A DNA stretch of 64,000 nt from Crossaster papposus (Eukaryota; Echinodermata; Asteroidea; Velatida; Solasteridae), in the NCBI GenBank assembly GCA_037893245.1, contig JBAIAA010000700.1, positions 1 through 64,000 of the forward strand. Direction: 5' to 3'. A program made the translations under genes and the position numbers. How positions within the stretch are numbered: the first letter of the stretch is position 1; every line of letters starts with the position of its first letter. Below, piece by piece: positions 9,011-31,960 of the stretch. The notes under the pieces are model-generated. The model was not told the origin of the DNA. It did not search any database and saw nothing but the letters and a program-made list of their open reading frames with translations.

Positions 9011-9052
9011 ATATATAAACGTTCGATTTGTACTTGGTCATTTTAACTTACC

Positions 9053-9290
9053 GGCACTGTTTCAGGATTCTAACCCGGGAGGTGGCGATCGATAGTCCCG
9101 TTGGTTACCGCTAGGCCACCGGCACTTCCGGATGAGATCTTTTGAATTTGTAATATATCAACCTTCGATATTTTAACGAAAACAATTCTCATCGACACCG
9201 TTTCAGAATTCGAACCAGGGAGGTTGCGATCGAAAGTCCCGAACGTTACCGCTTGGCCAAAGGCACTACCGGATTCGATTTTCGAATTTT
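9053..9290 (-). repeat. Two tandem tRNA-like elements (SINE head or tRNA relics)
   Basis: Two copies about 144 bp apart. Read on the minus strand, each has a good Pol III A box (TGGCCTAGCGGTAACC and TTGGCCAAGCGGTAACG) and B box (GGTTAGAATCC and GGTTCGAATTC) at tRNA-like spacing. The acceptor ends do not pair properly and no sound anticodon arm can be drawn, so these are tRNA-derived repeats or pseudogenes rather than working tRNA genes. They sit directly beside the end of the satellite. Confidence 0.6.
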
Positions 9291-9424
9291 ATATATATTG
9301 GACGTTGAACAATGATTGACAAATTGACAAATCTCCACTGTGGAGATTCGTGTACAAAACATATTTCTTCTCAAAATATATCGGTGGTCCACGATTGAAA
9401 GTATTTACAACGTTGAGAGTATAG

Positions 9425-9645
9425 ACCATGTGCCCTCTGTTTACGTCTATATTCAAATGTGCCTGGCAATATGCGCACGCATCGTGATTTACATAAATTT
9501 GGTTAAGAGGCGACATCAGAGGTCACATAATTCAAAGGTGGTCTGACCTGTGGCGTCACTCCTCAACCAAATTGTATGCAAAACATATTGCCGGGCACAT
9601 TTGAATACAGATGTAAACACGTGACGTCAGAGGGCATATCGTCTA
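9425..9645. repeat. Hairpin MITE-like element
   Basis: Imperfect inverted repeat. The left arm begins ATGTGCCCTCTGTTTACGTC and continues to CAAATGTGCCTGGCAATATG; the right arm contains CATATTGCCGGGCACATTTG and CAGAGGGCATAT. The inner parts also pair (AAATTTGGTTAAGAGGCGAC against GGCGTCACTCCTCAACCAAA). There is no coding potential. Confidence 0.6.
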
Positions 9646-9680
9646 TAGACGTAAATGTACATTCACATGTTTTATGAAAT

Positions 9681-9898
9681 GGGCCCCTGCTAAGCGCAAC
9701 AAATTGCTTAGCATAAATAAGTATTGCTTAGCAAAAATAGGTTATCAGCCAAAACTCCATGCTAAGCATATTACAGCTGAATATCAATCACACTAGTAAA
9801 CATCACCTGGAAATCTGGTTAGTAACCCTGTTTTTGCCAAGAAAGAATGTTCATGCTTAACAAGTTTTGTGTGCTAAGCAGCTCCACGGAATCGGGCC
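9681..9898. repeat. MITE family A (GGGGCCAATTTCATAGAGCT ends), copy 1
   Basis: Short element with inverted ends (GGGCCCCTGCTAAGC at the left, GCTTAGCACACAAAA-like and GGGCC at the right) and internal repeats of TTGCTTAGCA. Three further copies lie in the window at 10881-11113, 22065-22300 and 45466-45707. No protein is encoded, so it would be non-autonomous. Confidence 0.75.
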
Positions 9899-10083
9899 AT
9901 GTTGGTCGTTTGAGTAGCTTGTAAGATTATTCGTGCTATTGAAACTACTGCTGGTATTGCGCGTATACCCACTTTTAAGCCAATTATGGCTTAAAAGAAT
10001 TTATTACCTCGAGACAGCTTGGTATGCAGGGGTCTGGCCCAATTCCCCTTTCCCACGCTATACATCACGGTAATTGCACTTCT

Positions 10084-10094
10084 CTATATTTATA
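10084..10094 (+). promoter_or_regulatory. TATA-like motif upstream of exon 1a
   Basis: CTATATTTATA lies 51-61 bp before the ATG at 10145. The spacing would allow a start site near 10115. Such AT-rich motifs occur by chance in this window, so this is a weak call that stands mainly on its position. Confidence 0.25.
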
Positions 10095-10144
10095 TCGCCG
10101 TTCTAATTTAAACCAAAATTCGTTGATCCAGACGCGGTATAAGA

Positions 10145-10408
10145 ATGGCGCCTGGTTGGATCTCAGTGTCTTTATTTGTGGCACATCTGTGGTCGTTTCT
10201 GGTGATTTCTGGAGCTGATGTGGAAGGGACGAATGTGACGGACCTTTACATCCTGACGCTGTTTCCGATGTCGGGGTCTTGGGCTGGGGGTGAAGGGCAG
10301 CGGCCCGCGGTGGAGATCGGCCTAAAACACGTCAACTCTGACCCGGCCGTGCTGTCCGGGTACCGACTGGTCATGCAGCCGCCGTCCGCTGAGGAAGCGG
10401 ACACGCAG
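10145..10408 (+). CDS. Duplicated first exon of GABA-B receptor-like gene (exon 1a or relic)
   Basis: 88 codons from an ATG in good Kozak context (AGA before, G after), with an in-frame TGA upstream at 10124-10126. The peptide has a hydrophobic signal sequence (about residues 8-24) and then the first strand of a type I periplasmic-binding/Venus-flytrap domain. The segment LFPMSGSWAGGEGQRPA closely matches LYPLSGEWAGGQGQLPA in the first exon of the gene at 17412. It ends in phase 0 at CAG followed by GCAAGT, a strong GC-AG donor. The 17412 exon also ends in phase 0 at the homologous place, so this exon could splice to the shared exon 2 at 18902. I find no homologue of exons 2-18 between 10409 and 17411. 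Either it is an alternative first exon (alternative N-terminus and promoter), or it is the only surviving piece of a tandem duplicate gene. Confidence 0.75.
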
Positions 10409-10880
10409 GCAAGTCCGTTAGTCCGTCATCCCGCTTGTGTGTTTGGTTGTAATTATAACGGAGACTTTGATAGTTATCCGCATTTAAATACGCACAACAT
10501 GGGCTCGATTGTTGCAGATATACTTGTTTTTGCCATTCATTATTACCCCTGCTCGTCATGACTATAAAGCACCTAATTACATGTATCTACCAACATTTTT
10601 AAAATCGTCGCTTACCTTAACATGCACTTTTGTTTTGTTTTAATCTTCACATTTCTATTTTCTTGCAATGTGACATGATCTGGCACTACGATGAGAATAA
10701 ATCTTTGAATTTGTAATTAGAAAATGTAAACGTTTGTGGTTGAACATGATTATATCCTTCATTGGTGTAAACATTTTGAATGGAGACGTATTATATATAT
10801 ACTTGTTTTCATTGCTACGTTGATTCGAACATCGGTTTTACTGCTTAGAATAATTGCAGTGCCAAACGAATAGAACGGCT

Positions 10881-11113
10881 GGGGCCAATTTCATAGAGCT
10901 GCTAAGCATAAACAAAAATTAATGTTAGCACAAAAACAGTGTTGCTCAGGAAAAACAGGTTACCAGCCAAATCCACATGTGCTTTTCACGCTAAGAAAAA
11001 ACAGCTAAATACCAGTCACAAACATGCTCGTCTGATCATTTATACTATTTTTTCCAAGAAAGATTTTTATTGCTAAGCAAATGTTTGCGCTCAGCAGCTC
11101 TATGGAATTGGTC
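10881..11113. repeat. MITE family A, copy 2
   Basis: Starts GGGGCCAATTTCATAGAGCT and ends AGCAGCTCTATGGAATTGGT, nearly perfect terminal inverted repeats of about 20 bp. The interior resembles the copies at 9681, 22065 and 45466, with the same AAACAGGTTACCAGCC segment. Confidence 0.85.
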
Positions 11114-11984
11114 TTTGGTCAGAATTGCTTGAAGGTTTCAAGTTGGAAAGCAATTATTTTGTGCATTGCTTCAATGTTTCTTATCGTTCATTTGTCTGTG
11201 AATTAATTGCTAGTTCTTCTTCGTCCATCGTTACCCGTATACTCCGTACCCAATCCGGGCTTCATCGATCAACCGTCAAATCACTGCATAATATTCCAGC
11301 CTGCATTTGATCGGAATATGAAATACTTCCATGGTGTTTATTTTTTGTTTTATTTTATAAGACAACAGAGAGAGTGGCCCTGGATTAAGCCTGTTATTAG
11401 GTTGATTAATGGGTTGATATTTGATAGTTAATTCAACGCATTTAGCACTCTAAAGATAAAAATTATCGAAGGGCGGATTAGGTAAAAATATTGATGCCGT
11501 GCAGAAAGAGCGGGTTGAAGTTGATCGTTTTTTCAAATCGCATTTTCGCATTGGCCAACATTTTGAAATGCCTTTTTTGATGGCCGGTGTCATATGAAAA
11601 TATGACTCTTATATGAAAATCAGATTCATTTCCCTTATTATAATTGGTTAAATCATCTCACGTGACCGGTCACGTTCCTATAGTTATCTTTAAAAAGTCA
11701 AGATTTCATAGTCTAAAATTCAGGCTACACTGTTTAATTTAATCAACGAAATGTCTCGACAGAATTTGTTCGTGTATATTGTATACACGTTATTATAAAA
11801 CAAAGACTTGAAATACCTATAGCTTTTGTTTTTTGTATTTCGTTTCACACAAAAACCTGGTATTCTGCGATTCCTTTTGAGCTAAAATGTTACAGCTGGA
11901 TCGTATCGTATTATTTTTTTTCCCTGCTAGAACTAGAAGTTCTGTCCATGAAATCTCCGATGAGGAACATCATACAAAATTGCA

Positions 11985-12795
11985 TTCAGTGACATTAATC
12001 TATTTCTGTGACGTCATACTATTGTTGAAACTGTATTTTTATGAGGGTACAGTCGGAGTCTTTGTCAACTTAATCTACAGCCAAGAGTAGATTAAGTTAG
12101 GAATCTACTCTTGGCTGTACAATTAAGTTGACAAAGACTGTAGATTAAGTTAACAAAGACTCCGACGCGCACATAATCAATTTTGTTTTACAACAAAGGC
12201 CAAGTTCGATCAAGGAACTATAGTTAACTAGTGGTTAGTTCGTGACGTCATTAGGGCATGCGCACTGAAGTTGAAGTGCGAACGACTCTCGTCGAACTAT
12301 TGATAACTGCCAAACTTGAACTGGTCCTCTGTGTACTGTGCTTTTAAAGCGGCTACTGGTTACCATCGATGCGACCAACCGCGGTAGGCTGGTCGTGAAT
12401 AGTTGACTAGACTATAGTCCAACCATCGTCGACTAGCCTGAGTTCGATCAGAGTTAGTCAAACTATAGTTAACTATAGTCCTTGATCGAACTTGGCCAAA
12501 GGTTTATTCAAATGAGCCCTGGCGTCACCCCGATCGCCAGGTTTTTGGAGAAAGTGTATATCTTATTTTTATCAAACTTAGTGCTTTGTGAATTAAAGTA
12601 GGTATAGTATAGTCGGAGTCTTTGTTAACTTAATCTACATTGTCAACTTAATGTGCACCCAAGAGTAGATTCGTAACTTAATCTACTCTTGGCTTTAGAT
12701 TAAAATGACAAAGACACCGACTGTACATTCCTTAAAACAATCTACATTTATTTTCAACAATAGTATGACGTCACATAAATAGATTAAGTCATAAG
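11985..12795. repeat. Foldback element with long inverted arms
   Basis: Left arm 11985-12165 and right arm about 12610-12795 are inverted copies. The outer parts share TGTGACGTCATACTATTGTT. The inner parts share AGTCGGAGTCTTTGT and AACTTAATCTAC, and each inner arm contains a smaller palindrome around CCAAGAGTAGATT. The centre is occupied by a separate MITE (12198-12497). Confidence 0.65.
12198..12497. mobile_element. 300 bp MITE with ~30 bp terminal inverted repeats
   Basis: The left end GGCCAAGTTCGATCAAGGAA and the right end, CCTTGATCGAACTTGGCC, are inverted copies over about 30 bp with one indel. AAA flanks both ends (ACAAA before, AAAGG after) and may be a short target-site duplication. 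The interior has no ORF. It sits inside the foldback element at 11985-12795. Confidence 0.8.
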
Positions 12796-13679
12796 AAACA
12801 CATTTAGAAATAGGGCCATCACAGATTTTTTTTTTTTTTTTTTTTAAAGTAGAATAACACAAATTTTAATTTTTTTCTAAGGGACAAAAAATGCGACGGC
12901 CCTATAATAAATATCTTTCCCATGCCTTACTCAGACGATGTGCCAAATTTCATGCTTGTATCATCAAAGACACAATTTTCTGCCGCAATAACATCAACAT
13001 GTCTACCGTGGGAGATTTCTACTTATACTGAACGGAACAAGGAAGGTTCGGAGAAGCATCGAGGGCCAAGTAATTGCAGTTATTTGCGGAATGGCATCAG
13101 AATCAGCACCTGATCGCGACAGCCTTTCCAACAAAAATACAAATTTAGTGTCCATTACCAATCGGAAATCGGCGTCCGGACAAATCTCTTGAGAGACTGG
13201 AAATTAACGAGCAACATTCAAGAATGTGTCGTATACACTTACTTGGCCTTCGCTTTTCTCCTAGTCTGATTTTAAGCCGTGCTGTTCCAATTTCATTTCA
13301 AATTAACGGTGTCGGCAAACAAAATCTAAACTTGGCTTGAGCTTGCGACTTGGATGATAGAGGGTTGGCTTTCAAAAATTGCTGGGCGTTTTACACGCGT
13401 CTGAATGAACAGGCACTGTTTACTAATCTGTACATATTTTCCCCGCTGGAATGCAGTTTGTTCAATCTCAGATTAATTGTAATCTCTCGAGTGGACAAAA
13501 AGAATCTGCGGCCAGCATATAGGTGTGGTCCCCCCCCCCCCTTCAATTTATTTATTATGTAAAACGAAAACTGTAGACTCCTTTGTCCCCATAAAGGTTA
13601 TTTCACGAGTTTTTGCCCATCCCGTAAATCTTAATTGGCCTTAAACAGAACTTTCCCAAAATTAATGTTTAGACTTACC

Positions 13680-13930
13680 TCAGTATAAAGGTTTTGTATT
13701 CCTGTAAATATCATTGTACGTCTGTAAATATTATGTTTGTATTTTTGTGTAAATGTTGTTGTATTTCTATGTATTTATAGTAAGTTGTCCGTTTAACAGA
13801 CGTACGGTTGTGTTGATGACTTTCGATGTATTATTGATGTATGCAGGGCGGCTGGGCCCCAATGGAAACCAGTTTTTAAACTGTTTGGGCGCACCCTGGT
13901 TAAAGAAATGTAATAAATAAATAAAATTAA
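13680..13930 (+). repeat. Possible non-LTR retrotransposon 3' tail
   Basis: A TGTAAATAT/TTTTGTGTAAATG-rich segment leads into GGGCGCACCCTGGTTAAAG and a terminal AATAAATAAATAAA run. This is the look of a truncated LINE 3' end. No reverse transcriptase sequence is present, so the family is not assignable. Confidence 0.35.
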
Positions 13931-14148
13931 CTATTGTTTTCACGGAATGCTGCAGCAATTAATGAGATACAGTTTATTTGGTTAGTTGTCAACCACCTTC
14001 TTTAGATTCTGACAAAATACAATTCATTATACTTGGAAGCAATTAAAATGTAGAACAAACATATCTTGGTTCTTTGCTGCAGCCAAAAGCAGCCCTTTAT
14101 TTGACCAAAAACTTATTCAAACAAATTTAAACATATATATATGATGAA

Positions 14149-14567
14149 GGTTCATCTCAGTGACCCCACCATGGTATAGCTGCGGGCGGCTCACCGTACC
14201 AGCGTGATGCCCGACTTTTTCTTGGACCGACAGGGTCTCTTTTTGGGGTTCATCTCAGTGACCCCACTATGGTATGCATGCGGGCTACTCACCAGCGTGA
14301 TGCCCGACTTTTAAATGGACCGACAGGGTCTCTTTTTGGGGTTCATCTCAGTGACCCCACTTGGACCGACAGGGTCTCTTTTGGGGGTTCATTTCAGTGA
14401 CCCCACTTGGACCGACATGGTCTCTTTTTTGGGTTCATCTCAGTGACCCCACTTGGACCGACAGGGTCTCTTTTTTGGGTTCATCTCAGTGACCCCACTT
14501 GGACCGACAGGGTCTCTTTTTTGGGTTCATCTCAGTGACCCCACTTGGACCGACAGGGTCTCTTTTT
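14149..14567. repeat. Tandem array, 93-98 bp units shrinking to 46 bp units
   Basis: Seven units begin GGTTCATCTCAGTGACCCCA and end GGACCGACAGGGTCTCTTTT, at 14149, 14247, 14340, 14386, 14432, 14478 and 14524. The first two carry an extra ~50 bp (with CCAGCGTGATGCCCGACTTT) that later units lack, so the array seems to have expanded from an internally deleted unit. Confidence 0.9.
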
Positions 14568-15684
14568 AAATTTAACTGTTATGATTTAATTTCAATGTGA
14601 TCTTAACACAGATGTGCTGTTCAATCGTCGTACGGCTGGATCGAACAATATAATCTCTCGGGGAACAGCAAGAGAGATTGCAAGTCTGTGTAATAATATA
14701 CATACTACCTTTGACTACAAAAGTTTTACACAAACAAACTACTGGCTGTCTGAATCCCGCAATTTAGGCCATTATTGCTGGTTGTGCAATTTTTCAGAAC
14801 GACCTTAGAAACCTTTTGCCTACGACGCCAAAAAGAGTTTAGGCTTTATGTGCCTCAAGTATAACGTATTTTATCTTTTATGGATAAAATTAATTATCGC
14901 TCGTGCAAGATCTGCAAACCTCCAAAATAGGGCTTAATTTACCTTTAAACTGTTCGGGAAAAAAATAGGGTCTATGACTAACAAAAGAGCGCGAAAACCG
15001 CCGACGTAGGGCTCTCAAAGCCTTTATTTTTGTATTCGATTCGAGCTAATAATATAAAAGGTACTATCGGAAGATTATTTTAGATGCTACCTTGAAGATT
15101 AAAAGGGTCACAATTTAATATCTACATGTACCATTCACGTCCTTCACCGCGAATGCATTAAGTTTCGCTTCTATAGAATGGCAAAGCAACCTCCCAGCTA
15201 AACGGTAAGCACGGCAATTAGACGACAGCTTTTAACTCGTTAAGTGGTTATGTCTTTTTCACGGTCAGATTTTCGTCCGCGTCTGGGGATAATGGAATTA
15301 CACACAGCCCGACAGACAGACAGACAGCCCGCCCAACAAACAGACAGACAGAATATAAAATCAGTTTGAATTTAATTGAATTAAAAATGGTTTCTTAAAA
15401 AAAAGTCAATCTCGCAGCCGCCATGCTAAATTGCACGACTTGTACAATTATTAAAGCTAAGTTAACATTAACAGTCTCCTAAATAGAAATACAACTAAAA
15501 ACTAACACCAAAAATACACGCACATTTTACAGGACATAACTAATTAATTTGAAGGGGAAAAGGGGAAGTTAAATGTAGATAAAAACTGGGCAAGTTTGAG
15601 GAAAGGAAAAAAATAAAATCTTGATCTTGAAGTTGCTAGTTGTTTTGCAATAAGGATAATAACCATATAATATTGTATATCAAG

Positions 15685-16075
15685 TTTAAAGGGATCGTAT
15701 ATACGTTTGGTAATTACAAAAATGTATGGCAATAAAAACTTACTTGGTAAGAAGTAGAGCAGCTTGGGATAGTATAATGCATTTTTAGAAACTTTTCACT
15801 TCGAAGTACTGCGGTTATGGAAAAAGATATCACTTTTTATCTCCAAAAATTTGAATCTGAGAAGCGTTACTGCAGTGACGTTTCTCAGATTGTGTATTCC
15901 AATGCAGATTATTCTTCCTGCGTGGACATAACCGTTCCAGATTTTCGGCAATATCTCAAAATCGGTACCACCTTTTGAAATATTTACAGGTTAGTTTTAT
16001 GGTATATATCTATAACTATATAAGATTGAAACAAACAGTGGGTTCCAATTACTAAACGTATACGATCCCTTTAAA
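15685..16075. repeat. MITE family B (TTTAAAGGGATCGTATACGT ends), copy 1
   Basis: Inverted ends TTTAAAGGGATCGTATA and TATACGATCCCTTTAAA bound a ~390 bp element. The interior contains an inverted pair around TCTGAGAAGCGTTACTGCAG and GTGACGTTTCTCAGA. Other copies are at 50622-51011 and, truncated, at 57343-57513, both inside myosin introns. Confidence 0.85.
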
Positions 16076-16446
16076 AGTAGCTTCCTATTTTAACAAATCA
16101 TGATTTTCGAACGTTCAGCCTTTGTCAAAGAAATTAAATAAATTCGGCTCCTTTGTTGTTTATTCAATAGTTGTTGGGCGGTATTCAGAGTTGGTGAAGA
16201 TTATAAGATTATTGTCTTTTGTTATATCAATCCACTTATGAGATTAATTCCCAACCTTGCGTCAGCTACACGAGTTGCCATGGTGATGACATAATTTGTT
16301 CAAGGTTACAAGATGAGTGAAAAAATTGCGCCCTTTTGGAAACCGAAGCTCAGTCTCAATAGTCAGTGATCACGAACGGGGTTATGTCGTGTTGCACATC
16401 GCTAGTGCAAAATGCTGATCGAGATGCGCAATGACCGGATATATCG

Positions 16447-16570
16447 TAAGGCCGCGTCCGAATCTTTGTCTATGGCTATTGTCTAAGTGTTCGGTCATCA
16501 CAACTACGTGTGAGCAGGCTGACAATAGACGTAGCCGTAGCTCTAGAAGCCCGTTTTGGACACGGCCTTA
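16447..16570. repeat. Small MITE, ~124 bp
   Basis: Ends TAAGGCCGCGTCCGAA and TTTTGGACACGGCCTTA are inverted copies, and the inner segments GGCTATTGTC and GACAATAGACGTAGCC also pair. No coding potential. Confidence 0.65.
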
Positions 16571-16639
16571 AAGCCAACCGCCAATAAAAACCGCGGCCAC
16601 TTCCAATTTCCACAGTACGCGATTTCCGAGCTCAACCAA

Positions 16640-17310
16640 GCGAGTGATGACGATATAGAATTGACGGTTCTGGTCATTTCCAAAACTACTCGTCCATTTA
16701 GAGACAATCACTTCACTGGTTGCTTGCTTGTTTTGGTGTACTCTCCTAATTGCTGCTGTCCTGGAGAGGGTGGCACGTAAAGGCGCCTCTGGCAGCCGGC
16801 CAACCAACGAGGATTAAGTACCTGTGACGAGCTCTCTTGATGACGATCAAAACATCCTGACTGAAACGTCGAGTAATAAACACCGGTGGTTCGTTCCAGA
16901 ATCACTTCTTCATTTAGAGATATTCACTTCGCTCACTGGTAGATTGGAAATAAAATACCTGTTCCTGGCCAACCGATGAGGACCGAGTACCTGTGACGAG
17001 CTCTCCTAGTGACGATCAGATAATTTTGACCGAAACGTCGAGTTGGCAGCTCTGCATCGTTCTTTCCAGAATCACTTGTCAATTTGGAGATATTTACTTC
17101 ACTGGTAGATTGGGGGAAAATTGCAGGAAAATTGCAGTTCAACGACGACAGATTAACGGTGACAAACTCGCCCGGTGACGACCAGCGAATCGGGAGAAAA
17201 ACGTCGAGTCAAACCTATGGATCTCCCGGAACCGCCTCTTTCATTCAAAGAAAGGGTAAAATCTTTCGGTGACAATCATCGATTCTTCCCTGAAACGTCT
17301 ATACAACACC
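16640..17310. repeat. Degenerate ~170-215 bp tandem repeat with GAAACGTCGAG motif
   Basis: Repeated landmarks are TTCCAGAATCACTT, TTCACTGGTAGATTGG, CCTGTGACGAGCTCTC and GAAACGTCGAG (16863, 17032, a variant near 17197, and GAAACGTC at 17292). The stretch GATGACGATCA to GAAACGTC recurs with changes. It is probably retroelement-derived, family uncertain. It ends about 100 bp before exon 1 of the receptor gene. Confidence 0.55.
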
Positions 17311-17411
17311 TCTATAGTTGTTCTTAAGAATTATCTATCTCAAGATAACTACATATATTTTTTAAATATAAAATCAAATCTTTGAATTGCTCAAGAACTT
17401 CATTATTTACT

Positions 17412-20400
17412 ATGCATCATTCGTCACACGGCGTAATCCTATCGCTGGTGTGCTTGTTCGCCACGGGGTTGTGGTCTCACCGTTGCAAAGCGACGCCCGT
17501 AAATGCCTCCACCACGCCCCTGTACATACTTGGGCTGTATCCGCTTTCGGGTGAGTGGGCCGGCGGCCAGGGCCAGCTGCCTGCCACGCGTCTTGGCATT
17601 GAGCACGTGAACGCCAAGAAGGTTGTGCCCGGTTACGAATTGGTACTTGTCCCCTGGGACACTGAGGTGAGTGCAAACATTTCAGTGTCACCTAAAATGT
17701 ATACACAATAACACCAACGCTACCGAATACTACAAAATACTACTTGAGTTTAAGGAGTACCGACTCTTACTACACTGGCCCAAGATAATTGTGTAGTAGT
17801 TTAAAGTAAAGTGTACTGTACCACAATGAATGGACGTTAGTGTCAATTTAACAAGAAGAAAACATTGCTTGTATAATACTAGGATTCACATCGTACGAAA
17901 TCCATGATGTTTTGTATTTCACTCAACCGTACATGAATACCTTATTGAAGGAGCAATTGCATTCATACCAAAGGTAACACCCCGAATTATTATCAAAAAC
18001 CTTGCTTGGATTCAATATTGTGACGGTACATGTACTAAACACCCCGTGAAATTAGTCTGTCTGCCTTGCCGTCGTTTTTGGCAGAAATCGAGAAATGTAG
18101 GTGGTTTCAAACGATCTGCCAATTGAATGATTTGTTGAATAAAAAGGAATTTCTTGAAGAATCGTATTTCGAAACTAAAACCTAAATTATGAAATGGCGA
18201 TGGTTTAGAGAAACATGATAGTAAATTTAGGGCAAATGTTCTTTTTGCTATCAGTTTGTTAACTGTGTTGTAATAATAAATATGTGTTGAAATAATAAAT
18301 ATAGAGTATTGGGTTGTAATAATACAAACTAGCATTGGCTTTTACTACCGATTTTTTATAATTTTACTAGCACCTGCACAAACAACAATAAAGAAAATGC
18401 TTTTACTGAAAAGCATTTGCTATACTAAAGTGTTTACATTTTACATTCTAGCTTTTGCTAGAATATAAGCGGTTTTTCCCGACTTCCAGCATTATTTTGT
18501 TTATTTATTGCTCTATTGTGTTCGCTAGCTGGTCTTCTTTTGTATGGCAACGGTCCTTGAACGAAGTTAAATATAATTAACCTGCTTTGCGTAAGAAGTA
18601 TTGAAAGTGCTCCTAAGATGTAGCAAAATTACACTGGCACCGCTAAAACCAGTTAAAAAAACTGTTTTGTCTCTAATGAGGTTAGTCCACGATTGAAGTT
18701 GACACTTTGATAAACAAATAATTTCGAATATGACGTTGAAAAACAGTCGCTGCGAAAGTCACCAGACAGTGCGACAGTAAACAGTGCGACAAGTTGACAT
18801 CACAAATCCGCGTTCACGTTTGCTCTAAGAAGCGCTCTAGGCATCATTCTATTTAGGTGTTGTATAAAATGGTGTACCTTTATTTGTTTATGTGTGCACA
18901 GTGCAATGGAGGGAAAGGAACAGATGTCATGTACCGTGAGCTATTCAACAAAACTACCACCAAGATCATGATACTAGGAGCTGGATGCTCTATTGTCACC
19001 CAACCGACTGCACAGGCGTCTCACCACTGGAACCTAATTCAGGTATGGCGATCGGTTATGTAACACCTAAAATATAAGATAGTTGCATGGGAAAGACAGC
19101 TTGTTGGCAGATTGTAATCTGAAAAACAATACTTCGTCACCTTGACAAGATAGTTTGTCAGCCCGACAAGATAGTTCGTCATTGTGACAAAATTGGTTCT
19201 CATTCTGACAAGGTATAGTTCGTCAGCCTGACAAGATAGTTTCCATAGTAAACATGACAAAATAGTTCGTCAATATGACAGTATAGTTCGTCAACATGAC
19301 AGGATAGTTCGTCAACATGACGGGATAGTTCGTCAACATGACAGGATAGTTCGTCAACATGACAGGATAGTTCGTCAACATGACAGGATAGTTCGTCAAC
19401 ATGACATGATAGTTCGTCAACATGACAGGATAGTTCGTCAACATGACAGGATAGTTCGTCAACATGACAGGATAGTTCGTCAACATGACAGAACAGTTCG
19501 TCAACATGACAGGACAGTTCGTCAACATGACAGGATAGTTCGTCAACATGACAAGATAGTTCGTCAACATGACAAGATAGTTCGTCAACATGACGGGATA
19601 GTTCGTCAACATGACGGGATAGTTCGTCAACATGACAGGATAGTTCGTCAACATGACGGGATAGTCCGTCAACATGACAGGATAGTTCATCAACCTGACA
19701 ATATAGTTCGTCAACATGACAGGGTAGTTCGTCAACATGACAGGATAGTTCCTCAACCTGACAAGATAGTTCGTCAACATGACAGGATAGTTCGTCAACA
19801 TGACAGGGTAGTTCATCAACCTGACAAGATAGTTCGTCAACATGACAGGGTAGTTCGTCAACATGACAGGATAGTTCCTCAACCTGACAAGATAGTTCGT
19901 CAACATGACAGGATAGTTCGTCAACATGACAGGGTAGTTTGTCAACATGACAGGATAGTTCGTCAGAAGCCTGGCAAGATAGTTTGCCTTCCTGGCAAGA
20001 TAGTTCGTCACTGTGACAATATAAATCCTCATTTACAAGATATTAGTCCGTCATGTTGACATTAGTTCCTCTTTCTGACAAAATAATTCGTCAGTTTGTC
20101 AAGATAGTTCACCCTTTTTTACAACGTACTTCGATAATATACTTTACTACTAAGCAAGCTTGATATTCTTACGACAATTTGCTATTCGTCATGACAAGAT
20201 GTCTGACTATAATTTGACAGATTTCTTGTATTTAAAAAAAATCCCTTTCAGCTGTCTTACTCCTCAGCATCGCCGCTGTTGTCCAACAGAAACCTCTTCC
20301 AGAAATTCTTCAGGGCATTTCCCCCGGAGACCGTCTTCAACGTGGTCAAGTTTGCCATGCTGAAACATTTCGGCTGGAAGCGGGTGGCTACGCTCCACCA

Positions 20401-23400
20401 AACCATTGATCTGTTCGCTCTGGCAAGTGCAGCTATTTTGTTTCGACTGTAAATTTTACGGACATTTTCTTTTTTAGACAGTGTTGCTTTTAGCTTCCTT
20501 GCCAGAAAATAATCAATAAAATCGAGGCCCAAAAGGTGAAATATCCACCTCCCAAATAAGAAAAATCGACTTTTAATATTATGATCAAACCGTGAATGTT
20601 GTTGATGGTAGTTAAGGTGTTTTGATGTTTTCTTTTCTTAGCCGACAGTTGCTTTTCTTGACCAAGCCGAGGAAAACGGGATCGAGATTATTACGTCTGA
20701 GAGTTTTGCCGACAGTCCGGCAATGCAAGTGTCGAATCTCAAGGTAAATCGTGAATCTACACAGTGATTGCAAAACAGTACAAATGTAAATTATGAGTAT
20801 CTAGGACACTCTACTTGTTTCTATTGGTTCAGTTCACATCACGTGGGTGGTTTAAACGATTAATAAAACCGAAGCATTCAATTCAGCGACACATCGCTCA
20901 ATACGCGCGATGACCGCGCTAATCTTCACGAATGAGATTGTTTAGCATGGCGCGCTAGACCTTAAACATAAAACTAAATAATAATTCACAATACATGTAC
21001 ATGAAGACAAACTGTTAGTGTTAAACAAAATCGTTGGATATCCATAATTATTTATTAATATTTATAAATGTTCGGCTCGGGCCATTATCAGTGTCCAAGC
21101 CCCGAGCTGGTATACGTACTTATACTTATACTTATACGTACTTGTATTATCTGATTTAAACAATTACAATTATTATAATTATGATTTAAACAATTACTAT
21201 TTACATATTTAATGAATATTCACTCCTAAATCCTCCAGGTTTAATACATGTAATAATACACACACCCTAGGAAGTTAGAATTTATTAATAAAGTGAAACC
21301 AGGCATATATGTGGCATATTAAATCATGTTAACGTTTACAACGTAACATGTTACTGTGTTAAATAACCGAATATATGCAGTTAATGTTACGTGTTACGTT
21401 TACATGTACATGCCGTAAGCATATCACGCAACCCCTTTTCTCCCCCCCCCCCCCCCCCACCCCTCAAGAAACAAGGTGCAAGGATCATTATTGGCAACTT
21501 CTACGAGACCAAAGCGAGACAGGTGTTTTGCCAGGCCTACAAGGAAGGAATGTACGGAAAGAAATACGTCTGGATTATAACAGGTAAGCAAAGAGGTTAT
21601 AATAATACTAATATTAATGGGTCATTTGGGAGACATCTTCATAAACTTTACTGTTCTTTTTTTCCATACAATTTGGTATTTATATATTTTTTAACCCTAC
21701 TCTATCGATTTAGACTGTTTAGACAGTAAACATGTTTTTCCTTTTTGTGCTCCATCGAAATGTCCCCCTAATGTCACTTTTCCTCCTTAATAGCATAACA
21801 CTTGCGCTACTGTCTCCTTAAGAGTATTTATAAGGCAGTTCTTATATAGCGCACTTATCTACCCAGACTGGTACTCAAGGCGCTCTCACATTATTATTAC
21901 AGGTTGGTACAGCCATCAGTGGTGGTTATCAGACGACGAGGAGAACAGACATGATTGCACCAAGGAGCAGATGGCGGAGGCGGTGCAAGGCTACTTCACC
22001 ACCGACGCTCTGCCGCTGAGTCTTGCCAAGGAGCCCGGAGTGGCTGGCATTGTGAGTCACAGCTGGGACCAATTTCACGGAGCTGCCAAGCACAACAAAA
22101 TGCTTAGCATAAACATTCTTCCTCGGGAAAAACAGGGTTACAAACCAAATTGTCAAGTGATGCGTATTGTTTGTGAGTGGTATTCAGCTGGTTCTGGCTT
22201 ATGAAAAGCACATGGAGCTTTGAGTTGTACCCTTTTTAACGAGCAAGACTTTGTTGTGCTAAGCAAATGTTTGTGCTTAGCAGCTTCAGGAAATTGGCCC
22301 ATGTATTGTGTATAGCAGTACATTTCCATGATGTATATATTTTAATGGCGTGTATCCATATAAGTACCTTTCAAGAATGCGCATACGTACGCGTGTTCGA
22401 GTACGTTGTAACAAGTATAAGTATGATAGTTACGAGTACGATAGTACGATAGTATACGAGCAGTACCTTGCTGAGAATATAAATACAGGTAGTACGGATA
22501 CCTTGTCATGACTATACGGGTACACGTATGAATACGAGTGCGAGAACAAGACGATTGTTGCCATAAAAGTGCGAATAAGAGTACCTTTTCACCAGTCTAT
22601 AAAACACCAACAATTATCAAATAAAATTACACATACATGTAATAGATAATAATAACAAGGCGATTTTGTGTGATAATTGTACACATGTACATCAGACGAA
22701 ATCTACTCGAGTATATTAACCGTGTGTGATATATTTTAAGCCGTTTGCAGCAGTTTTAATCTGAGTCATATATCTTTAAACCTAGACGACAGCAGAATTT
22801 GAAGCGGAATACAGGGAGTACGTTGGCGGGGAACCAGAGAAGTTGTCCGGGTACCAGGAAGCCGCGTATGGTTTCGACAGCGTGTGGACGATAGCGCTTG
22901 CCCTGAAGGAGGCGGAGACAAGACTTCAGGCTTTAGGTAAGTTATTATTAGTATCGACTAGCACATAATTGTTACACTGATCTGTTTTAAAGGTTTTTTT
23001 TATGGATGCAGGGAAGAAAAACAAAGAGATGAACTTGTTTTTGTAGTCTGGTTCCCTGATCATACTTTGGACGAAACCAAGCAATTGTCAGGTGAGGGAG
23101 CTATAGAAAAGCTGGCTTGCTTCGTTCATGCACAAGATTTAACTATTTTGGTAAATTGGGGGCAAGATAAGAAAATTGTCATTTTTTTTTCCAAATATGG
23201 GCGGCCGACCATCGTTGAAAATGGATGCACGTTTTGGAAAAGGACAATACACCAGGCGCAGTGATTTTACATGATGCTTTAGACTGTTACTCACTTATAA
23301 GATATTTCATAATCTCTTTTTTTTTTAAATGTTTGCAGATTTTATTAAAACAGTTGTGAACAAGTTGGCAAAAATAAATAGGCCTATATGTTCCACTATC

Positions 23401-26400
23401 GTGTACCTGATGTGACAAAATATATGTACTTTTATGTAGAATGCGATAAGTCACCGACAATGTCTATATGACTGCAAGAATTATAAACAAACATATGTTT
23501 ATATACATGCATACAAAACAAAATCTACACAAAATTACAAAAACTGGTAAGAAGCCAACACGAGTCTGTAAACTAAAACATAGTTGGATTGCACTGTCGC
23601 TTTCAATCACGAAAACGACGATAAACAAATGCCATGAGGCTAGGAACACACTTTACGATAAAGCTTGTCTGTGATATTATCCACACAGGCTAATTAAAGT
23701 CTCCCTGGTGACCTGCTTAATGGGTGTATAAAATGCTAATATCACTCGATACCACGGCTCTCTGTATGATACTTGATCTTGCCAAGAAGCTTGGAAGTCA
23801 TTTCTGTAATTACGGAGCGAAAATAAAGTGTCCGTATCAGAATGCACTTCGGGAGATAAAAACACAGGGCATGCGATATGTTAAAGGTGGAGTAACCGTT
23901 TGCAGCTATCCAGAAAGTAACCCAGTAAATTACTCTTGAAAAGCTTGTTTTACAGATATTAATTACACTAAACTACCTCTAAAATGATTCCATCTTAAAT
24001 GCTGTCGTCTAAAGCAAAACAAGAAAAGGTCATATTGCAATACTAACAATAAAATGACCTCTTTTAGGAAAGGGGAAGTATTCAGTTTCTCGTCAACAGG
24101 ATGTCGGCCTTGCCTTAGCTTCGTGTATACAATCAGCAATAACCGCACCTGATCACAAAACCCAATTTTTTGTTAACGTCCCTCTTTATTAATTGCGAGA
24201 TCTCTCGAGGATTGATGGTCTGACAAGTTTTCATTAAGGCCTGTGCGATATTAAAGAAATTGCGGTCTGTACATGTTGGTGCAATAAGGCCGACGTGAAG
24301 TTAGGTGTCGCGTTTTACGGTCAAGAACATGGCTTCCTGTCAAGGGAAATTGACTTTTGAAAACTAATTTTGTCAAAATAACAGAAGTTAATTTCCCGAT
24401 ACACGAGGCTCCGTCCTATCTGCAATACATTGATTTACGTACACTAATGCTGTAACTGAGTTAATTCTGACTAATCGCAAAAGTACATCTGGTACCACAC
24501 GTAGACGTCCGTTCCGTGAGTGTATTTGAAATAACTTGTTAGATTTCATCAAATGAATAGCAGGGTTGTAGTCGAGTCCCTGTAAGTCCTTTCACAAGTC
24601 CTTTCGTGAAGCCAGTCACAAGTCCCTTCATAAAGGCAGTCACAAGTAACTGGATGAACAATGACAAAGGAATGCCTTTGTCAAAGCTGATTTGAATAGC
24701 TTGTGATTTAAATTTGAACTGAAGGACTTGTGATGGACTTGCAGGGACTTACAGGGACTTGCAGGGACTTGTGATGGACTCGACTACATCCCTGGTGAAT
24801 AGTAATGATTTACATTGAAGGTAATTGCTATATTTATTACAGACCCACCCAAGACGATTGCAAACTTTTCATATGATGATGATGAAATGGCAAATATATT
24901 CTTTGAGGTCATCAACGCTTCAAATTTTGAAGGGGTCTCGGTAAGAAGTACTTTTTCGTTTCACCTAGAGACGTAATTTAGTTAGAAAAGAACTCGCTGT
25001 CATCTTGAGTAGACAGCACTGTGGATATAACTCGCTAATATCTTTAGTAAACAGCACTGGATAGAACTCGCTGCTATCTTCAATAGACATCACTGTGGAT
25101 AGAACTCGCTGATATCTTCAGTAGGCAGCACTTTAAATAGAACTCGCTGCTATCTTCAGTAGACAGCACTCTGGATAAAACTCGCTGCTATCTTCAGTAG
25201 ACGGCACTGTGGATAAAACTCGCTGCTATCTTCAGTAGACAGCACTTGAAATAGAACTCGCTGATATCTTCAGTAGATCGTGATAGATCAACAAGGAACT
25301 ACAATTCCGAACAACAAATGCAGTTTCTCCTAAGAGAAAGAACATTTATATTAATTTAGATAACGAATGTTGGATTCTACTAACGAGTAAACCAACCTTT
25401 AAATAAAATACAATTAACTTGGCTTCAATTTGGTATTTTACACAGGGCCCAGTGCAGTTTACATACGACGGCGACCGAAAGGGATTAATGCAAGTTGAAC
25501 AGAACCAAGGTACACGGCCACCCGATATCTGCACTGCATTTAACACAAATGGCGAATAATGGATTCTGACTAATTACAAGCAAAAATACCTAGTCCTGGC
25601 CCATTAGTCCTGATGAAGTAACATTTTCTGGATATTTTATTGTGTCTTTTTTAATTAGATGGGGCTGAAGTAAGAGTGGGGATTTATCATCCTACGGCCA
25701 CGGAGAGCAAGCTGAAGTGGACAAATGAGCCGCAAATCGTCTGGCAAGGTGAATGATCGGAACCGTGGATTGGATTTATCCAATTGGTTGGTGTCAGGTG
25801 TTACGGGGTCATCCTATACAACAGCACTGCCCGGGTCGACATTGCAGTGTGGATACATTAATCAGCGCCCTCTACAATACTTTTAGTACAAGTACATTGC
25901 AGATTCAAGTAACAGAAGTATCATTTTCCAACGATATACAACAAGTCGACCATTGCAGTAACAAACATTTAACTTTGCCCATGGCACTTCTGACCCGCAG
26001 GTGGCAAACCCCCAGCAGACTCCATCCTTGAGGAGGAGATACCACAGACAATCTCCCAGGAACTTTTCATCGGGATGTCGGCCCTGGCTTCTGCCGGGAT
26101 CGTGCTTGCGATGGGCTTCCTGGCGTTCAACGTGCACTTTAGGAACAGACGGTGAGCTTTTAATGTTGTCTTACCTTCAACAAAAACACACCTAGGTAAA
26201 GCAGCCAAGAACAGCAACATTTCCTAGAGGCATTTTGAATACCACTGTATTAACCATAACCTCGAAAGATGCATGCAAAATCATTTTAAAGTTAGATGAT
26301 TTGAGACTGTAGGGGTTATTTTGATTTGATAAGGGTTAGTTTTAGGTAAATATAAAGTACTGCTGCTACTTGTGTGATGTCACAGAAGAAACCTATTGTT

Positions 26401-29400
26401 CTCTTCTTTTTGTTACGAGCCACAAATCTGGCCCACGAACGGAACTGATTCAAGGTCTTCTAGCAATACGCTAATGCAATTTATTAAAAAAACTTATTTA
26501 TTGCGCCAACAGAAAATATAATGATTCTTCCAGACATTGTTTGTAAATTAAATTACTTTATCCGTCTGTAGTAATTTTGTGCTGTTCGTTACCCTAAGAG
26601 TAAGAAATCAAATTAAGTGTTTTCTGATACAAAGACATGGCAAATTAGCAATGCTGTTTGTCCTTGTTTTATTGGATTAAGAGTTTAATAAGGTTTCGCT
26701 TCATTCATTGCCAGAGTAGGTCGACTCAATGTTTGGTCTGGAGCCTTTCCCAGCAGAGAGCAATATCAATTACATTATCCATTAGGTCAAGGTCAATGCT
26801 GCCACATTTCGAGGATGAAATGTATCGCAAGGGATTACTATTATAAAAAAAAACGAAGTTACTTTGGTTAAAAGGTCAACCTAAATTGAACAAGAAAACA
26901 CGATTTACAGACTTGCATTTTCTTCATAAATCAATTCAAAATATTACTAGACAACGGCAAAGGAAAATACTTCCGTAATAGGCCGTATTTCTGCTCGAAT
27001 GAGGGCGCTAACGCCGGACGCCATTTTCTTTAGACTATCACGTTTTATATTGAAGTCGTTTTAACTAAACTCGCTTTTAATCTGAAAATTAAACATCGAC
27101 AAAATGATCTTGTCGAACTGTAGGTGTGAATTGACGTAAATAATTTTTATATTTACAAGCCGCCCAAATGTCGTAGCTACAGCACCATATTTTGTTCAGG
27201 AGTACAGCGAATTGATATATATCTCCCACGAGAAGAGAATACTCGTTGTGGATGCTGTTATTTAAATAATTGTACATTGTACATGTACTTGGGCTTTTCT
27301 GGAGTAATTTTTAATGGAAAGATAAAATTGTCTTACCAACAAAAGTTTTTTGTTGTATTGTTTATTGACAACAGATATTTGTAATAGAAAGAAAAGCAAG
27401 TTCTTGTACACAGTCACAGATGTTTATTAAATTTTCCGTTTTGTTTTTTTCTTGATCAGATTTATCAAGATGTCCAGCCCAAAGATTAACAATCTGATTC
27501 TAGTAGGAGGGATGCTGATGTACGTGTCCATCTTCTTCAACGGGCTGGATACGAGCAGGGTTCCGTTCGACTCCTACGTCTGGATGTGTAAGGTGAATGT
27601 CTAGAAAGAAGAGAAAGGTGTGGAAAAGGCGTTTGGTGTTTTGGCATTATGATTTCAAGTTGAGAATTGTTGTAGTATTTTTGTTTAGGTAAGGCTTGAA
27701 GTCTGCGTCGTACATAATTTACTGAAGGACATTTAGCAGCACGTGTGTCAGTTTTGTTTTGTTTGTTTTGTTTTGTTTGTTCTTTTGCGAAATGTATAAC
27801 GCTATAGCTTTCTAAGGATTGTCGCTGTGGGGAAGAGAGAAGCGATTGATCTATGTTACACCTTCCCCACAAGGCTATGCCTACAAGTACGTGATGCCGC
27901 ACAGCGATAAATAGTGACGAGGTCAGGGCTATTGCGCGCATTAATGTCACTTTTGGTACCGTTTTCTTATCCCGGGTGTACCAAACTATAGTTAATTTTC
28001 GAGCGTGTGCAATGTTTTTTTATTTTCAGGCCAACATGTGGTGTTTGGGCATCGGCTTTTCATTGGCTTTTGGCGCCATGTTCAGCAAAACTTGGCGAGT
28101 GCACAAGATATTCACAAGCAAAATTATGATGAAAACGGTAAATAATCACATGTATATGACATACAGGGTGTGCGAATACTTATTTCAAGAAATGAATATC
28201 GCCATCTGCTTTAGACTGGTGTTAATCATGTATTGTTGGGCTGTATGCATAAAAAAGAGAACATACTTATAGTAAAAAGTAAAAGTTTTTGCTTGTCAAG
28301 TAAAAGTAAAAGTAAAAGTAAAAGCATATGCTCGATTTGGTATGCATAACCTTTACCTTTTACTTCGTAGTAAATGCTAGTACTTGCCTAGTATTCTCTC
28401 TTATTTCCAAAGAGTGAAAATCCACTCCATTCGATTAAAAATTCACTCTATTTTATTGAAAATTCACTCCCACAGTCTGAAACTAGGGGCCAGACGTTTT
28501 AGAGTGAAATTAATTCACTCGAAAAAGATTGAAATCTAATAAAATTCCACTAAAATCTAATAAAATTCCACTGAAATCTAATCAAATTCCACTGAAATGG
28601 TACAATTTTTAAGTGTGTTTTAATCTAAATTAAGAGTGAGAACCACTCTAAAACGTCTAGTTCCTAGTTTCACTTTTTGGAATTTAGTTTGCATATGAAT
28701 TCATTAGATCATTGTGGTCAGACTATAAAATCTTTGCACAAAAGGCCATTCAAATCATATAGATGTCCTTCAGATAATTATACTTCACCAGAGCAACTCT
28801 TCTTGGCTGGTACTCCTGCTTTTTAATTGGTAACTGCATAAACTCAGCCATTTTGCATGTAGATGTTATCGACACATCTGTACAAGTATACTGCCAAGGT
28901 AGCTCTGTTTTCAAGCATCTACTAAGAACTCTCTAAATTCCAAAGAGTGAAACTAGGGACTAGACGTTTTAGAGTGGATCTCAAATTTAGATTGAAACAC
29001 ACTTAAAAATGGTACCATTCCAGTGGAATTTGATTAAATTTCAATGGAATTTGATTAGATTTCAATCTTTTTCGAGTAAATTAATTTCACTCTAAAACGT
29101 CCGGTCCCTAGTTTCAGACTGTGGGAGTGAATTTTCAATCGAATGGAGTGCATTTTCACTCTTTGGAAATAAGAGAGAAAACGCTAGTAAATACTTGGTT
29201 TAATGCATATCAATGGAAGTATTTACTACTATTTAAGTAAAAGGTTGTTGAGCAAATGCTAGTAGTAAAAGCTTCGAGTACAATCTTCTACTACATTCTA
29301 TGCAAAAACATTGAAGTAAATGCTTACATTTTCAAGTAAATAGTAAAAAGTAAATAGTCCCTTAGACTAACCCAAATATTACTGCACAAAATGTTCAGAC

Positions 29401-31960
29401 TTAACCCACAAGACAAGCCTACACATTGTCTAAGAGTGACACAAATTCCCACATGAAAGGTTTTTCTATCTGATGGTATAACCTCTTCTGTGATTGGTAT
29501 TCCTTTCGTTTTTAAACGATCAGATAATAAAAGACTACCAGCTTTACGTGATGGTGGCTGTACTAGTCCTGATCATCACTCTGGTTTTGGTTATCTGGGA
29601 GATTGTGGATCCACTACAGACGGTAGTCCGAAAAGGAGCTCGGCAGGTAATTCATAGCAATAACAATTGCCAACCTGCCAATCTGTTGATCAACCACATT
29701 CACCAGTATTCATTATCCACCTGTCAAGTAATTTTTCCACATAATTTCAACCAATCAACACATCCACTGATCAACCAGTAGTACATGTACAGTCCACCGT
29801 CTTGCTAATCGACCAGTTTTGCCCCTACCAATTACCAACCTAAACTAATCCACACGTTTGTTAACCATTCCAACCAACCTCTAAATATTGCCATCAATCC
29901 ACCAATTAAATAAACTTCTACATTCTTCCACCAAACCACTCAACCAACCACCGATTAACCAGGAGCCTTTAATTCGACGATCAGTCAGAGAATAGTGCCA
30001 CTGTGGTTCAACAGTCAAACCATGCTACAAATTAGTTGACTACATGTACAGTAGTACATGTAGCCAACTAATTTGTAGTCTACTATTCCACCAATCTGTT
30101 GATCAACACGTGCATGCTTTTGCACTTGACACAGTAAAATATGTAAAATATCTACAATGTTTGCATCCCAAACAGCAAACGGATGACCTGGATGTGGTCA
30201 TCATCCCTGTCCACGTCACCTGCGAGGCTAAGTGGCAGGTGTATTGGGTCGGGACTCTCATCTGTATCGAGGGATTGTTGCTCGTCTTCGGCGCCTTCCT
30301 GGCCTGGGAAACCAGAAAGGTGACGGTACCGGCCTTGAACGATTCCAAATACATAGGTGAGTGATTGTAAAATCATTTAAAAGCAAAACGGAATCGGAGT
30401 ATTATGTATTATGTTGAGGAGAAATGACAAAAACCCGTGAACTTGGACTTCTTTGATTCGAATCCATAATAAATAAATAAATGTCCACCTTTTGAGTAGT
30501 TAAAAAAAATAATTAAACTATGTCCTTTTTACACCAATTGTCAAGATGTATAAAATGAATTAAGTCCATTGTTCAGTGGTGAGCTACAGGTACATGGAAG
30601 GTTCGCCCGGTGTTGCGTAACAAAACAATATGAATCAACAGATTCAGTTCTTGATAGTACAGTTTAACTGTACAGTACATTCTGCTTCCTTTGGAAAACA
30701 CAATCTCTTTATATCAACTTCCAATAGGAATGAGTGTGTACAACACCGTCATCCTCTCATTCATCGTGGTTCCCGTTTCGCTCATCTTAGACGAGGTGGA
30801 TGCTCGTTACGTCATCATGTCTGTCTTCATTGTGTTCGCTACTACACTCACGCTGTGTCTCGTGTTCGTTCCAAAGGTAGAGTTTTTTTTTTCCCTTATC
30901 AATCTGATATATTTCTTTGATGTAGTAAACGGTATGCAGATGAAAACAAAGTCATGTGAAACTGAAAGACAACGATTACACAAATGTTAAAAACAAATCA
31001 TTTAAAGTGATCAAGATTTTTGTTCTGGATCCAGATCAATCTGAAAGCTTGTGGAATAATCACCGACACATAAGCTATCTAACCACTAAGTTTCCATAAT
31101 ATCTCTCCAGTAGAGTGTCTGTAAACATGCTTACAACCAGACAGACAGACAGACAGACAGACAGAAGGACAGAGACAAACAAACCGCTGGCAAAAACATA
31201 ACCTCCTTGGCAGTGGGAACAAAATTACAATCACTTCAAATAAAATTGAACTCTTATTGGCGGTAAGCTCGAAGATGGTGTTGTTTTACAGTTCTCATTC
31301 TTTCGCTGTTTTTTCTCACTGTTTTCAATTTGTTGTACTGTTCTCAGCTGAAAGTAAGAAACGACATTCACCCGAAGGGCAGCATGCTGGCGACCATGAA
31401 GAGTCGGGAGGAAGGGGAGAATGACTCTGACAAACGAATACGCCTACTAAACGAGATGATACAGAAGCTTCAAACATCGCTTGTCAAGGTAAAAAGTAGG
31501 ACTAGTAATAGGAAATTCTTATATTATATATATATGATGGTTTATTTCTATTTGAATTAAAAGCAGCCAATAGGTTGAAAACATTCACTTTTTTCAGATT
31601 AAAAACTACTCTAGAAAGATTGAAAACCACCCCAAAAGAGTCGATTTTCTTTTTAGAGTTGTCCCTCAGTTGGCTTCTCAAGAGAGTGACAAGTTACACC
31701 GTTTTATACCTATAACTATACCTTTTGTCACCCGTGTCTACATTAGTGACATAAAAGGTAGCCTACGCAAGTCATATACATTGTAGCAGTTATCTACGAT
31801 CTACTGTTATCCATGTTCTTTGTTCTTGCAGAAGGATAGCATTATAAAAGAACTGGGGACGGCCGGAGTCAGCGGCCAGAGCAAACATCACAGGGAATCG
31901 GCAGACGAGGGAATCAACACGACAGGAACGTCTCAGAAGGAAGCGGCTAGTACAAGTTAG
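17412..31960 (+). CDS. GABA-B receptor subunit 2-like class C GPCR, 18 exons
   Basis: Exons: 17412-17666, 18902-19042, 20252-20422, 20642-20743, 21469-21583, 21903-22051, 22786-22936, 24843-24940, 25446-25509, 25659-25748, 26001-26151, 27460-27592, 28030-28137, 29524-29646, 30176-30356, 30728-30876, 31348-31488, 31832-31960. Joined, they give 816 codons plus TAG with every phase matching. The protein has a signal peptide (1-32), a Venus-flytrap domain (about 36-450, with paired Cys86 and Cys114), seven membrane helices (465-490, 505-525, 543-564, 583-604, 637-664, 678-698, 706-727), the extracellular Cys539-Cys633 pair, the class motif FVPK (724-727) and a short coiled coil (about 755-785). 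MSSPKINNLILVGGML and ALNDSKYIGMSVYN point to the subunit 2 branch, which in vertebrates carries G-protein coupling and forms a coiled-coil heterodimer. The C-tail is shorter than in vertebrate subunit 2 and has no RSRR retention motif. Exon 3 uses a GC donor. The ATG is the first in frame after a TAA at 17346. Ligand binding cannot be deduced. Confidence 0.93.
17710..17835. repeat. Dispersed repeat, shared with myosin intron 1
   Basis: The segment with CTACAAAATACTACTTGAGT, CTCTTACTACACTGGCC and GTGTACTGTACC recurs at 47935-48050. Both copies sit shortly after exon 1 of their genes. Short, with no ORF. Confidence 0.7.
19138..20110. repeat. 21 bp minisatellite in receptor intron 2
   Basis: About 34 near-perfect copies of GATAGTTCGTCAACATGACAG (19260-19965) with decayed copies on both sides. 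Because 21 is a multiple of 3 and the unit lacks stops in two frames, it creates long open frames on both strands (repeating RQHDRIV on + and MLTNYPV on -). These are repeat artefacts, not genes. A larger pattern using CTCAACCTGACAAGATAG units recurs from 19690 on. Confidence 0.95.
21836..21902. repeat. SINE/LINE-like tail that supplies a splice acceptor
   Basis: TTATATAGCGCACTTATCT, CTCAAGGCGCTC and a terminal ATTATTATT run resemble, in inverted form, the 3' end of the element at 41995-42300 (CTTGAGCACTCC, GGCGCTATATAAGT, ATTATTATT). Its last bases, TTATTATTACAG, are the acceptor of receptor exon 6. Confidence 0.45.
22065..22300. repeat. MITE family A, copy 3, in receptor intron 6
   Basis: Begins GGGACCAATTTCACGGAGCT, only 13 bp after the donor of exon 6 (22052), and ends AGCTTCAGGAAATTGGCCC. 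The interior has GCTTAGCATAAACATTCTTC and CTTTGTTGTGCTAAGC as in the other copies. Confidence 0.85.
24562..24795. repeat. Hairpin element in receptor intron 7
   Basis: The ends AGGGTTGTAGTCGAGTCC and GGACTCGACTACATCCCT are inverted copies. The arms contain repeats of AAGTCCTTTCACAAGTCC and GGACTTGCAGGGACTT. No ORF. Confidence 0.75.
24990..25275. repeat. Tandem repeat, ~38 bp unit, ~7 copies
   Basis: Units of the form ACTCGCTGCTATCTTCAGTA followed by GACAGCACTGTGGATAGA, with a few single-base variants and small indels. The array begins about 50 bp after exon 8. Confidence 0.85.
28350..29240. repeat. Large foldback element in receptor intron 13
   Basis: Left arm about 28350-28690 and right arm 28932-29240 are inverted copies over roughly 300 bp. 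Shared segments include TCTCTTATTTCCAAAGAGTG, CCACAGTCTGAAACTAGG, CCAGACGTTTTAGAGTG and AAAGATTGAAATCTAAT. A run of AAGTA/AAAAGT repeats (28283-28330) precedes it and AGTAAA-rich sequence follows. The ~240 bp spacer holds nothing recognisable. Confidence 0.85.
30025..30078. repeat. Palindrome
   Basis: CTACAAATTAGTTG and TACATGTA on the left pair with TACATGTA and CAACTAATTTGTAG on the right around a CAGTAG loop, with one mismatch. It is in the intron before receptor exon 15. Confidence 0.8.

Follow-up and report, generated by a model that had tools for sequence, protein, structure and literature searches.

In vertebrates, as we propose for the locus described here, a single gene for subunit 1 of the GABA-B receptor, GABBR1, gives rise to proteins with different N-termini, GABAB1a and GABAB1b, and the review PMC7411975 places Trp65, Ser130, Ser153 and His170 of subunit 1 in the ligand site and reports that a change of Trp65 abolishes both antagonist binding and agonist activation. 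Here we analyse the first 64 kb (‘the window’) of the 862-kb contig JBAIAA010000700.1 (C700) from the genome of the echinoderm Crossaster papposus (1.02 Gb, 1841 contigs), in which two homologous, intact, old, constrained and phase-matched first exons lie before one GABA-B-type receptor body and probably serve as alternatives to each other. The N-termini of GABAB1a and GABAB1b are presumably produced by alternative promoters, and we take Tyr250, Trp278 and Glu349 to be further ligand residues of subunit 1.

Results

The original prediction was of a duplicated first exon at this locus that could exchange the start of the receptor ectodomain. The exon coordinates, open frames, DTQ and DTE ends and phase 0 that it had given were all recovered, as was an exon 2 beginning with Cys86:

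10145..10408, plus strand: distal (upstream) first exon, with ATG, hydrophobic leader and the initial segment of the ligand-binding lobe, which contains the Trp65 equivalent; 88 amino acids (aa), phase 0
10409..10414, plus strand: GC splice donor GCAAGT of the distal exon (exon end CAG)
17412..17666, plus strand: proximal first exon, E1; 85 aa, phase 0, GT donor (GAG/GTGAGT)
18902..19042, plus strand: exon 2, first residue Cys86, behind a CAG acceptor; common to either first exon (predicted for the distal one)

The claimed duplication was borne out by comparison of the two peptides, which are 46% identical over 76 aa (tblastn in the window, E 1.6e-16); across the genome, each finds the other as its top hit after itself (E 4.1e-13 and 5.5e-13). 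The two genome searches with exon-1 queries returned 13 matches each (weakest E 0.6 and 7.3), and among the best candidates, which were the ones scored, the query alone exceeded 49% identity. Both exons carry a hydrophobic stretch after the ATG, with an in-frame stop upstream of it (21 bases away in the distal exon, 66 in E1), and their G+C contents of 0.59 (distal) and 0.60 (E1) stand against flanks of 0.40 and 0.36 in either case. Each peptide also matched GABA-B subunit 1 chains in the PDB, which we take to be human (best E 1.1e-7 for the distal exon and 6.4e-8 for E1); a chance open frame is ruled out for the distal exon by this match and by that to E1. A Pfam scan of the 88-aa distal exon by itself gave no match at E<=10, which counts against the observation, and E1 by itself gave a weak Peripla_BP_6 match (E 0.065). 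When ten exon 1s of the family were aligned (alignment A1), the distal exon was found to retain the near-invariant positions and Trp65 and to stop at the family boundary DT[QEK] exactly at its donor, with five additional residues before the junction that the nine others do not have. No sign of a recent duplication, an allelic contig or a retrocopy was found in the scored matches of the genome searches above or in a DNA comparison of 8001-12500 with 14501-19000, where the best match was 25 bases at 88%.

E1 heads an 18-exon gene (17412-31960, 816 aa; model assembled by hand) in which all junctions are in phase and whose remaining exons are as follows:

20252..26151, plus strand: exons 3-11, remaining ligand-binding domain and entry to helix 1 (exons 3-7 at 20252-20422, 20642-20743, 21469-21583, 21903-22051 and 22786-22936; exons 8-11 at 24843-24940, 25446-25509, 25659-25748 and 26001-26151)
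27460..31960, plus strand: exons 12-18, seven-helix domain and C-terminal tail up to the stop (exons 12-15 at 27460-27592, 28030-28137, 29524-29646 and 30176-30356; exons 16-18 at 30728-30876, 31348-31488 and 31832-31960)

The encoded protein has the Venus-flytrap ligand-binding domain and the class C seven-helix domain of a class C G protein-coupled receptor; it matches a GABA-B subunit 1 chain over residues 27-782 (E 8.8e-172), and its closest solved relatives are GABA-B receptors. When the distal exon was joined in silico to exon 2, skipping E1, an open frame of 819 aa resulted, with Pfam matches to PF01094 (E 1.7e-51) and PF00003 (E 3.8e-57); the E1 form, scanned without its tail (727 aa), gave similar results. 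The ectodomain of the 819-aa product aligns with GABA-B subunit 1 across the new junction (E 1.3e-92), the five-residue insertion falling just before it. The proposal that both exons could splice to exon 2 thus stands as regards phase and the open product, but the donor of the distal exon is GC, a feature that had gone unmentioned.

Taking the Trp of the GGW motif in the subunit 1 chain as residue 65, that chain has the expected Ser, Ser, His, Tyr, Trp and Glu at positions 130, 153, 170, 250, 278 and 349. Trp65 is retained in the distal exon and in E1 alike; five of the seven ligand-site residues are retained in all (Trp65, Ser130, Tyr250, Trp278 and Glu349), with Ser153 replaced by Ala and His170 by Phe. 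The first-exon piece holds one of the seven plus its surroundings, the other six being encoded by the common exons. By homology we take the exchanged segment to comprise the first strand, the Trp loop, the first helix and the second strand. The anatomy (own start, leader, phase, Trp, old age with constraint, no body of its own in the window) fits an exchange of part of the ligand-binding lobe as originally put forward, except that the segment exceeds the one strand then assigned to it.

Two further observations concern the receptor gene itself. The ectodomain of the distal form is nearer to GABA-B subunit 1 (314 bits versus 252 for subunit 2) and the seven-helix domain nearer to subunit 2 (260 bits versus 207 for subunit 1), and because of this mosaic likeness ligand binding and G-protein coupling might reside in a single chain. 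Much of intron 2 is occupied by a 21-bp minisatellite (19129-19965, ∼40 copies), which is open over long frames on both strands because its unit is a multiple of three.

The distal donor (CAG/GCAAGT) is consensus-like apart from its GC. The nearest phase-0 GT site, after 10420 (TTA/GTCCGT), matches the consensus poorly, as do further phase-0 sites nearby. Within the receptor model 16 of 17 donors are GT, the exception being exon 3 with GC (CTG/GCAAGT, 20420-20428). Among the 13 exon-1 matches to the distal query, whose donors were read by eye (a further match, C74:3287208, is not among them), two have GC, namely the distal exon and exon 1 of a paralogue on contig C255, and 11 have GT. At the exon 3 junction, GC is found in the C700 gene and GT in the paralogues on C255 and C499.

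The stretch from the in-frame stop at 17346 to the ATG of E1 (17349-17411) contains a single AG, which is out of frame; E1 is thereby ruled out as an internal exon of a transcript that starts with the distal exon. Since E1 has no in-frame acceptor near its ATG, use of the distal exon should skip E1, and two first exons without usable acceptors before one body are usable only as alternatives. Each has its own start codon and its own donor, both are in phase with one common acceptor, and they would be mutually exclusive.

No third copy of exon 1 was detected in the window at E<=0.02 with both window exons and eight exon-1 peptides from other loci, so that the earlier statement that no other exon homologue lies between the two holds at this threshold. 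Nor was there a second receptor body in the window, as the queries for exons 2-18 each matched only themselves (E<=0.02). A Pfam scan for other genes between the exons, covering 10 of the 23 open frames of at least 70 aa listed for 9015-17411, gave no credible match (best E 0.1). Elsewhere in the genome, exon 1 and the exon-3 match are tens of kb apart in several related genes, and among the matches listed (intervals between exons on C567, C642, C518 and C74 unread) no GABA-B-type gene other than that on C700 had two exon-1 matches; the three on C567, each followed by a separate exon-3-like match, are read as three genes. A second exon 1 was likewise not found in C255:10001-120000, in C499:1230001-1260000 or in 10-kb stretches of C446, C408 and C43. 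A tblastn match of the distal exon at C255:36888-36971 (E 0.022, 28 aa, internal stop) lies above the E 0.02 cut-off and was taken as chance.

In order to assess age and constraint, paralogues within the same genome were compared, namely the genes on C255 and C499, whose exon order and junctions are identical to those of the C700 gene for the exons compared. Unlike the C700 gene with its two, each has one detected exon 1: that of C255 lies 40 kb from exon 2 and shares with the distal exon the GCAAGT donor and the near-identical core motif LFPMSGSWA.GE, and that of C499 has a GT donor, with ∼320 bp separating it from exon 2. The C255 gene is read in two frames in exon 15 (∼15030-15210, minus strand) in the assembly, which may reflect a sequencing error, an allele or decay. 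Identical core residues numbered 29/55 between the distal exon and E1, 29/56 between the distal exon and C255 and 27/55 between E1 and C255; against C499 the counts were 23/56 for the distal exon, 22/55 for E1 and 30/56 for C255. Divergence at synonymous sites (dS) was at least 1.30 in the six pairs (not computable in one), with non-synonymous divergence (dN) of 0.35-0.60; dS values this high are rough, and no date can be derived from them. The distal exon and E1 gave dS 1.51 and dN 0.48, with synonymous sites near saturation, and the distal exon and C255 exon 1 gave 2.31 and 0.35, the dN from C255 being lower for the distal exon than for E1 (0.40). In all three pairs that involve the distal exon, dS was 1.5 or more and dN 0.35-0.60, as under constraint at the protein level. 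In a simulation of unconstrained copies, with indels assumed at 10% of substitutions, 0.2% of 4000 had acquired neither a stop nor an indel by 0.2 substitutions per site. These dS and dN values and the rarity of open simulated copies together argue that the distal exon was under protein-level selection for most of its life, and this would hold whichever transcript carried it.

The receptor bodies, with paralogue exon ends set by hand, are identical at 173/324 (C700-C255), 162/317 (C700-C499) and 191/319 positions (C255-C499), so that C255 and C499 group apart from C700. As the identity between the distal exon and E1 resembles that between the C700 body and its nearest paralogues, the exon duplication and the split of C700 from its paralogues may be of similar age, although exon 1 may evolve at a rate different from the body. 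A tree built from exon 1 (12 rows, 57 columns) has no starred branch among its nine and does not resolve the distal exon and E1. The GC donor and the LFPMSGSWA.GE motif that they have in common point to a single GC-type first exon as the ancestor of the distal exon and of C255 exon 1, independent change being possible as well.

The remainder of the window contains other sequences. A 107-bp satellite (∼82 copies) occupies 1-8715 at the contig start, and a related array continues to 9014, 1.1 kb short of the distal exon. The open frame at 37435-37872 on the minus strand encodes an RNase PH domain (PF01138, E 6.9e-19) and probably belongs to an exosome subunit gene, two myosin motor domain exons (PF00063, E 6.9e-25 and 1e-21) lie at 53423-57182 on the plus strand, and a pure 5-bp repeat, GGTGG (39530-39993, ∼93 copies, 99% matches), is open in several frames.

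Discussion

We favour, as the rather probable explanation of this arrangement, that the distal exon and E1 are old, mutually exclusive alternative first exons of one GABA-B-type receptor gene. Several lines of evidence argue for it: the distal exon has an open frame in phase 0 with an upstream in-frame stop, a GC donor that otherwise follows the consensus and an open spliced product whose ectodomain aligns with subunit 1 across the junction; Trp65 and the near-invariant positions are retained, and the divergence values and the simulation speak for long constraint; no receptor exons lie between the two first exons and E1 is without an in-frame acceptor near its ATG; and the C255 paralogue likewise combines a GCAAGT donor with a distant exon 1, exon 3 of the C700 gene also having GC. 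The interpretation is plausible, and the age of the exon and the recurrence of the GC donor strengthen it.

Each first exon would presumably have its own promoter. RNA from the proximal one would join E1, through its GT donor after 17666, to exon 2, whereas RNA begun near 10.1 kb would join the distal exon, through the GC donor after 10408, to exon 2 at 18902 and skip E1. The two proteins would be identical from exon 2 onward. Their differences would lie in the signal peptide, the N-terminus and the opening portion of the ligand-binding lobe, where the neighbourhood of Trp65 would change and the distal form would have a loop five residues longer; an altered response to ligand might follow. Such an arrangement could have originated by duplication of the first exon together with its promoter, or by a deletion between tandem genes that brought the first intron of one up against the front of another and so created an alternative promoter in one step.

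Some points weigh against alternative first exons. The junction from 10408 to 18902 and both promoters are ones that we infer; GC donors are rare (PMC7242645 gives GC-AG a share of ∼0.8% among the splice sites of human protein-coding genes); no exon 1 of alignment A1 other than the distal exon has the five-residue insertion; dN from C499 is somewhat higher for the distal exon (0.60) than for E1 (0.50); the C255 gene, with its break of frame in exon 15, is no clean reference; and old constraint does not prove present use.

The last point bears on the rival that survives best, though we think it unlikely: that the distal exon once headed a separate receptor gene in tandem, that the rest of this gene was lost in a fairly recent deletion, for instance through an unequal crossing-over between its first intron and the region before E1, and that the exon is now unused or beginning to decay. 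Past constraint would leave an identical picture of dN and dS, the distal exon has no body exons of its own in the window, and the genome holds many related genes, several with the long first interval noted above. However, the distal exon has kept its whole frame and its donor, so that constraint can have been lost only recently, if at all, and such a deletion would itself have placed the distal exon before exon 2, possibly making it an alternative first exon.

It is improbable that the distal exon instead starts another transcript, with unrecognised downstream exons or with read-through into the intron to yield a short secreted protein. The frame does stay open beyond the donor to a stop at 10559, and the donor is of the rarer GC type, but none of the 10 frames scanned, out of 23 listed between the two exons, had a credible Pfam match and the exon ends on the family boundary exactly at the donor. 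That the distal exon was the original main first exon, as in C255, with E1 a later addition of minor or no use, seems very improbable, as the GC donor and LFPMSGSWA.GE motif common to it and to the only exon 1 found in C255, also far from its exon 2, are offset by hardly differing identities to that exon (27/55 for E1, 29/56 for the distal exon), by an exon-1 tree that does not separate the cases and by an E1 that is intact, has a GT donor and adjoins exon 2.

If the distal exon and E1 are indeed alternative first exons, promoter choice could exchange the Trp-bearing segment of the lobe, yielding two receptors that differ in ligand affinity or selectivity and that have been kept since about the time of the paralogue split, with the GC donor helping to control the distal form; we put this forward tentatively, as a possibility that falls short of an even chance. 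Should the alternative first exons themselves be confirmed, a class C receptor would use them to replace a piece of the ligand-binding lobe instead of an extra domain, offering a natural test of the role of the first lobe segment in class C affinity and selectivity, and inhibitory signalling could be tuned by cell type without a second gene. Searches of a library of open-licence papers listed no title that concerned alternative first exons inside a GABA-B ligand-binding domain, which is weak evidence of absence.

With regard to known systems, the GC donor in the first intron places the distal exon beside a statistical class described for human and mouse. According to PMC7242645, GC-AG sites of human protein-coding genes are enriched in first introns and genes that contain such a site are more prone to alternative splicing, and according to PMC2490688 alternatively spliced genes are enriched in GC donors; the available text of neither source ties such introns to the choice of a receptor ectodomain. 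The closest known parallel, GABAB1a and GABAB1b, differs by two sushi domains outside the ligand-binding fold, to which PMC7411975 attributes no pharmacological effect in heterologous cells, whereas in the Crossaster gene the piece that would be exchanged lies within the ligand-binding fold and holds the ligand-site Trp.

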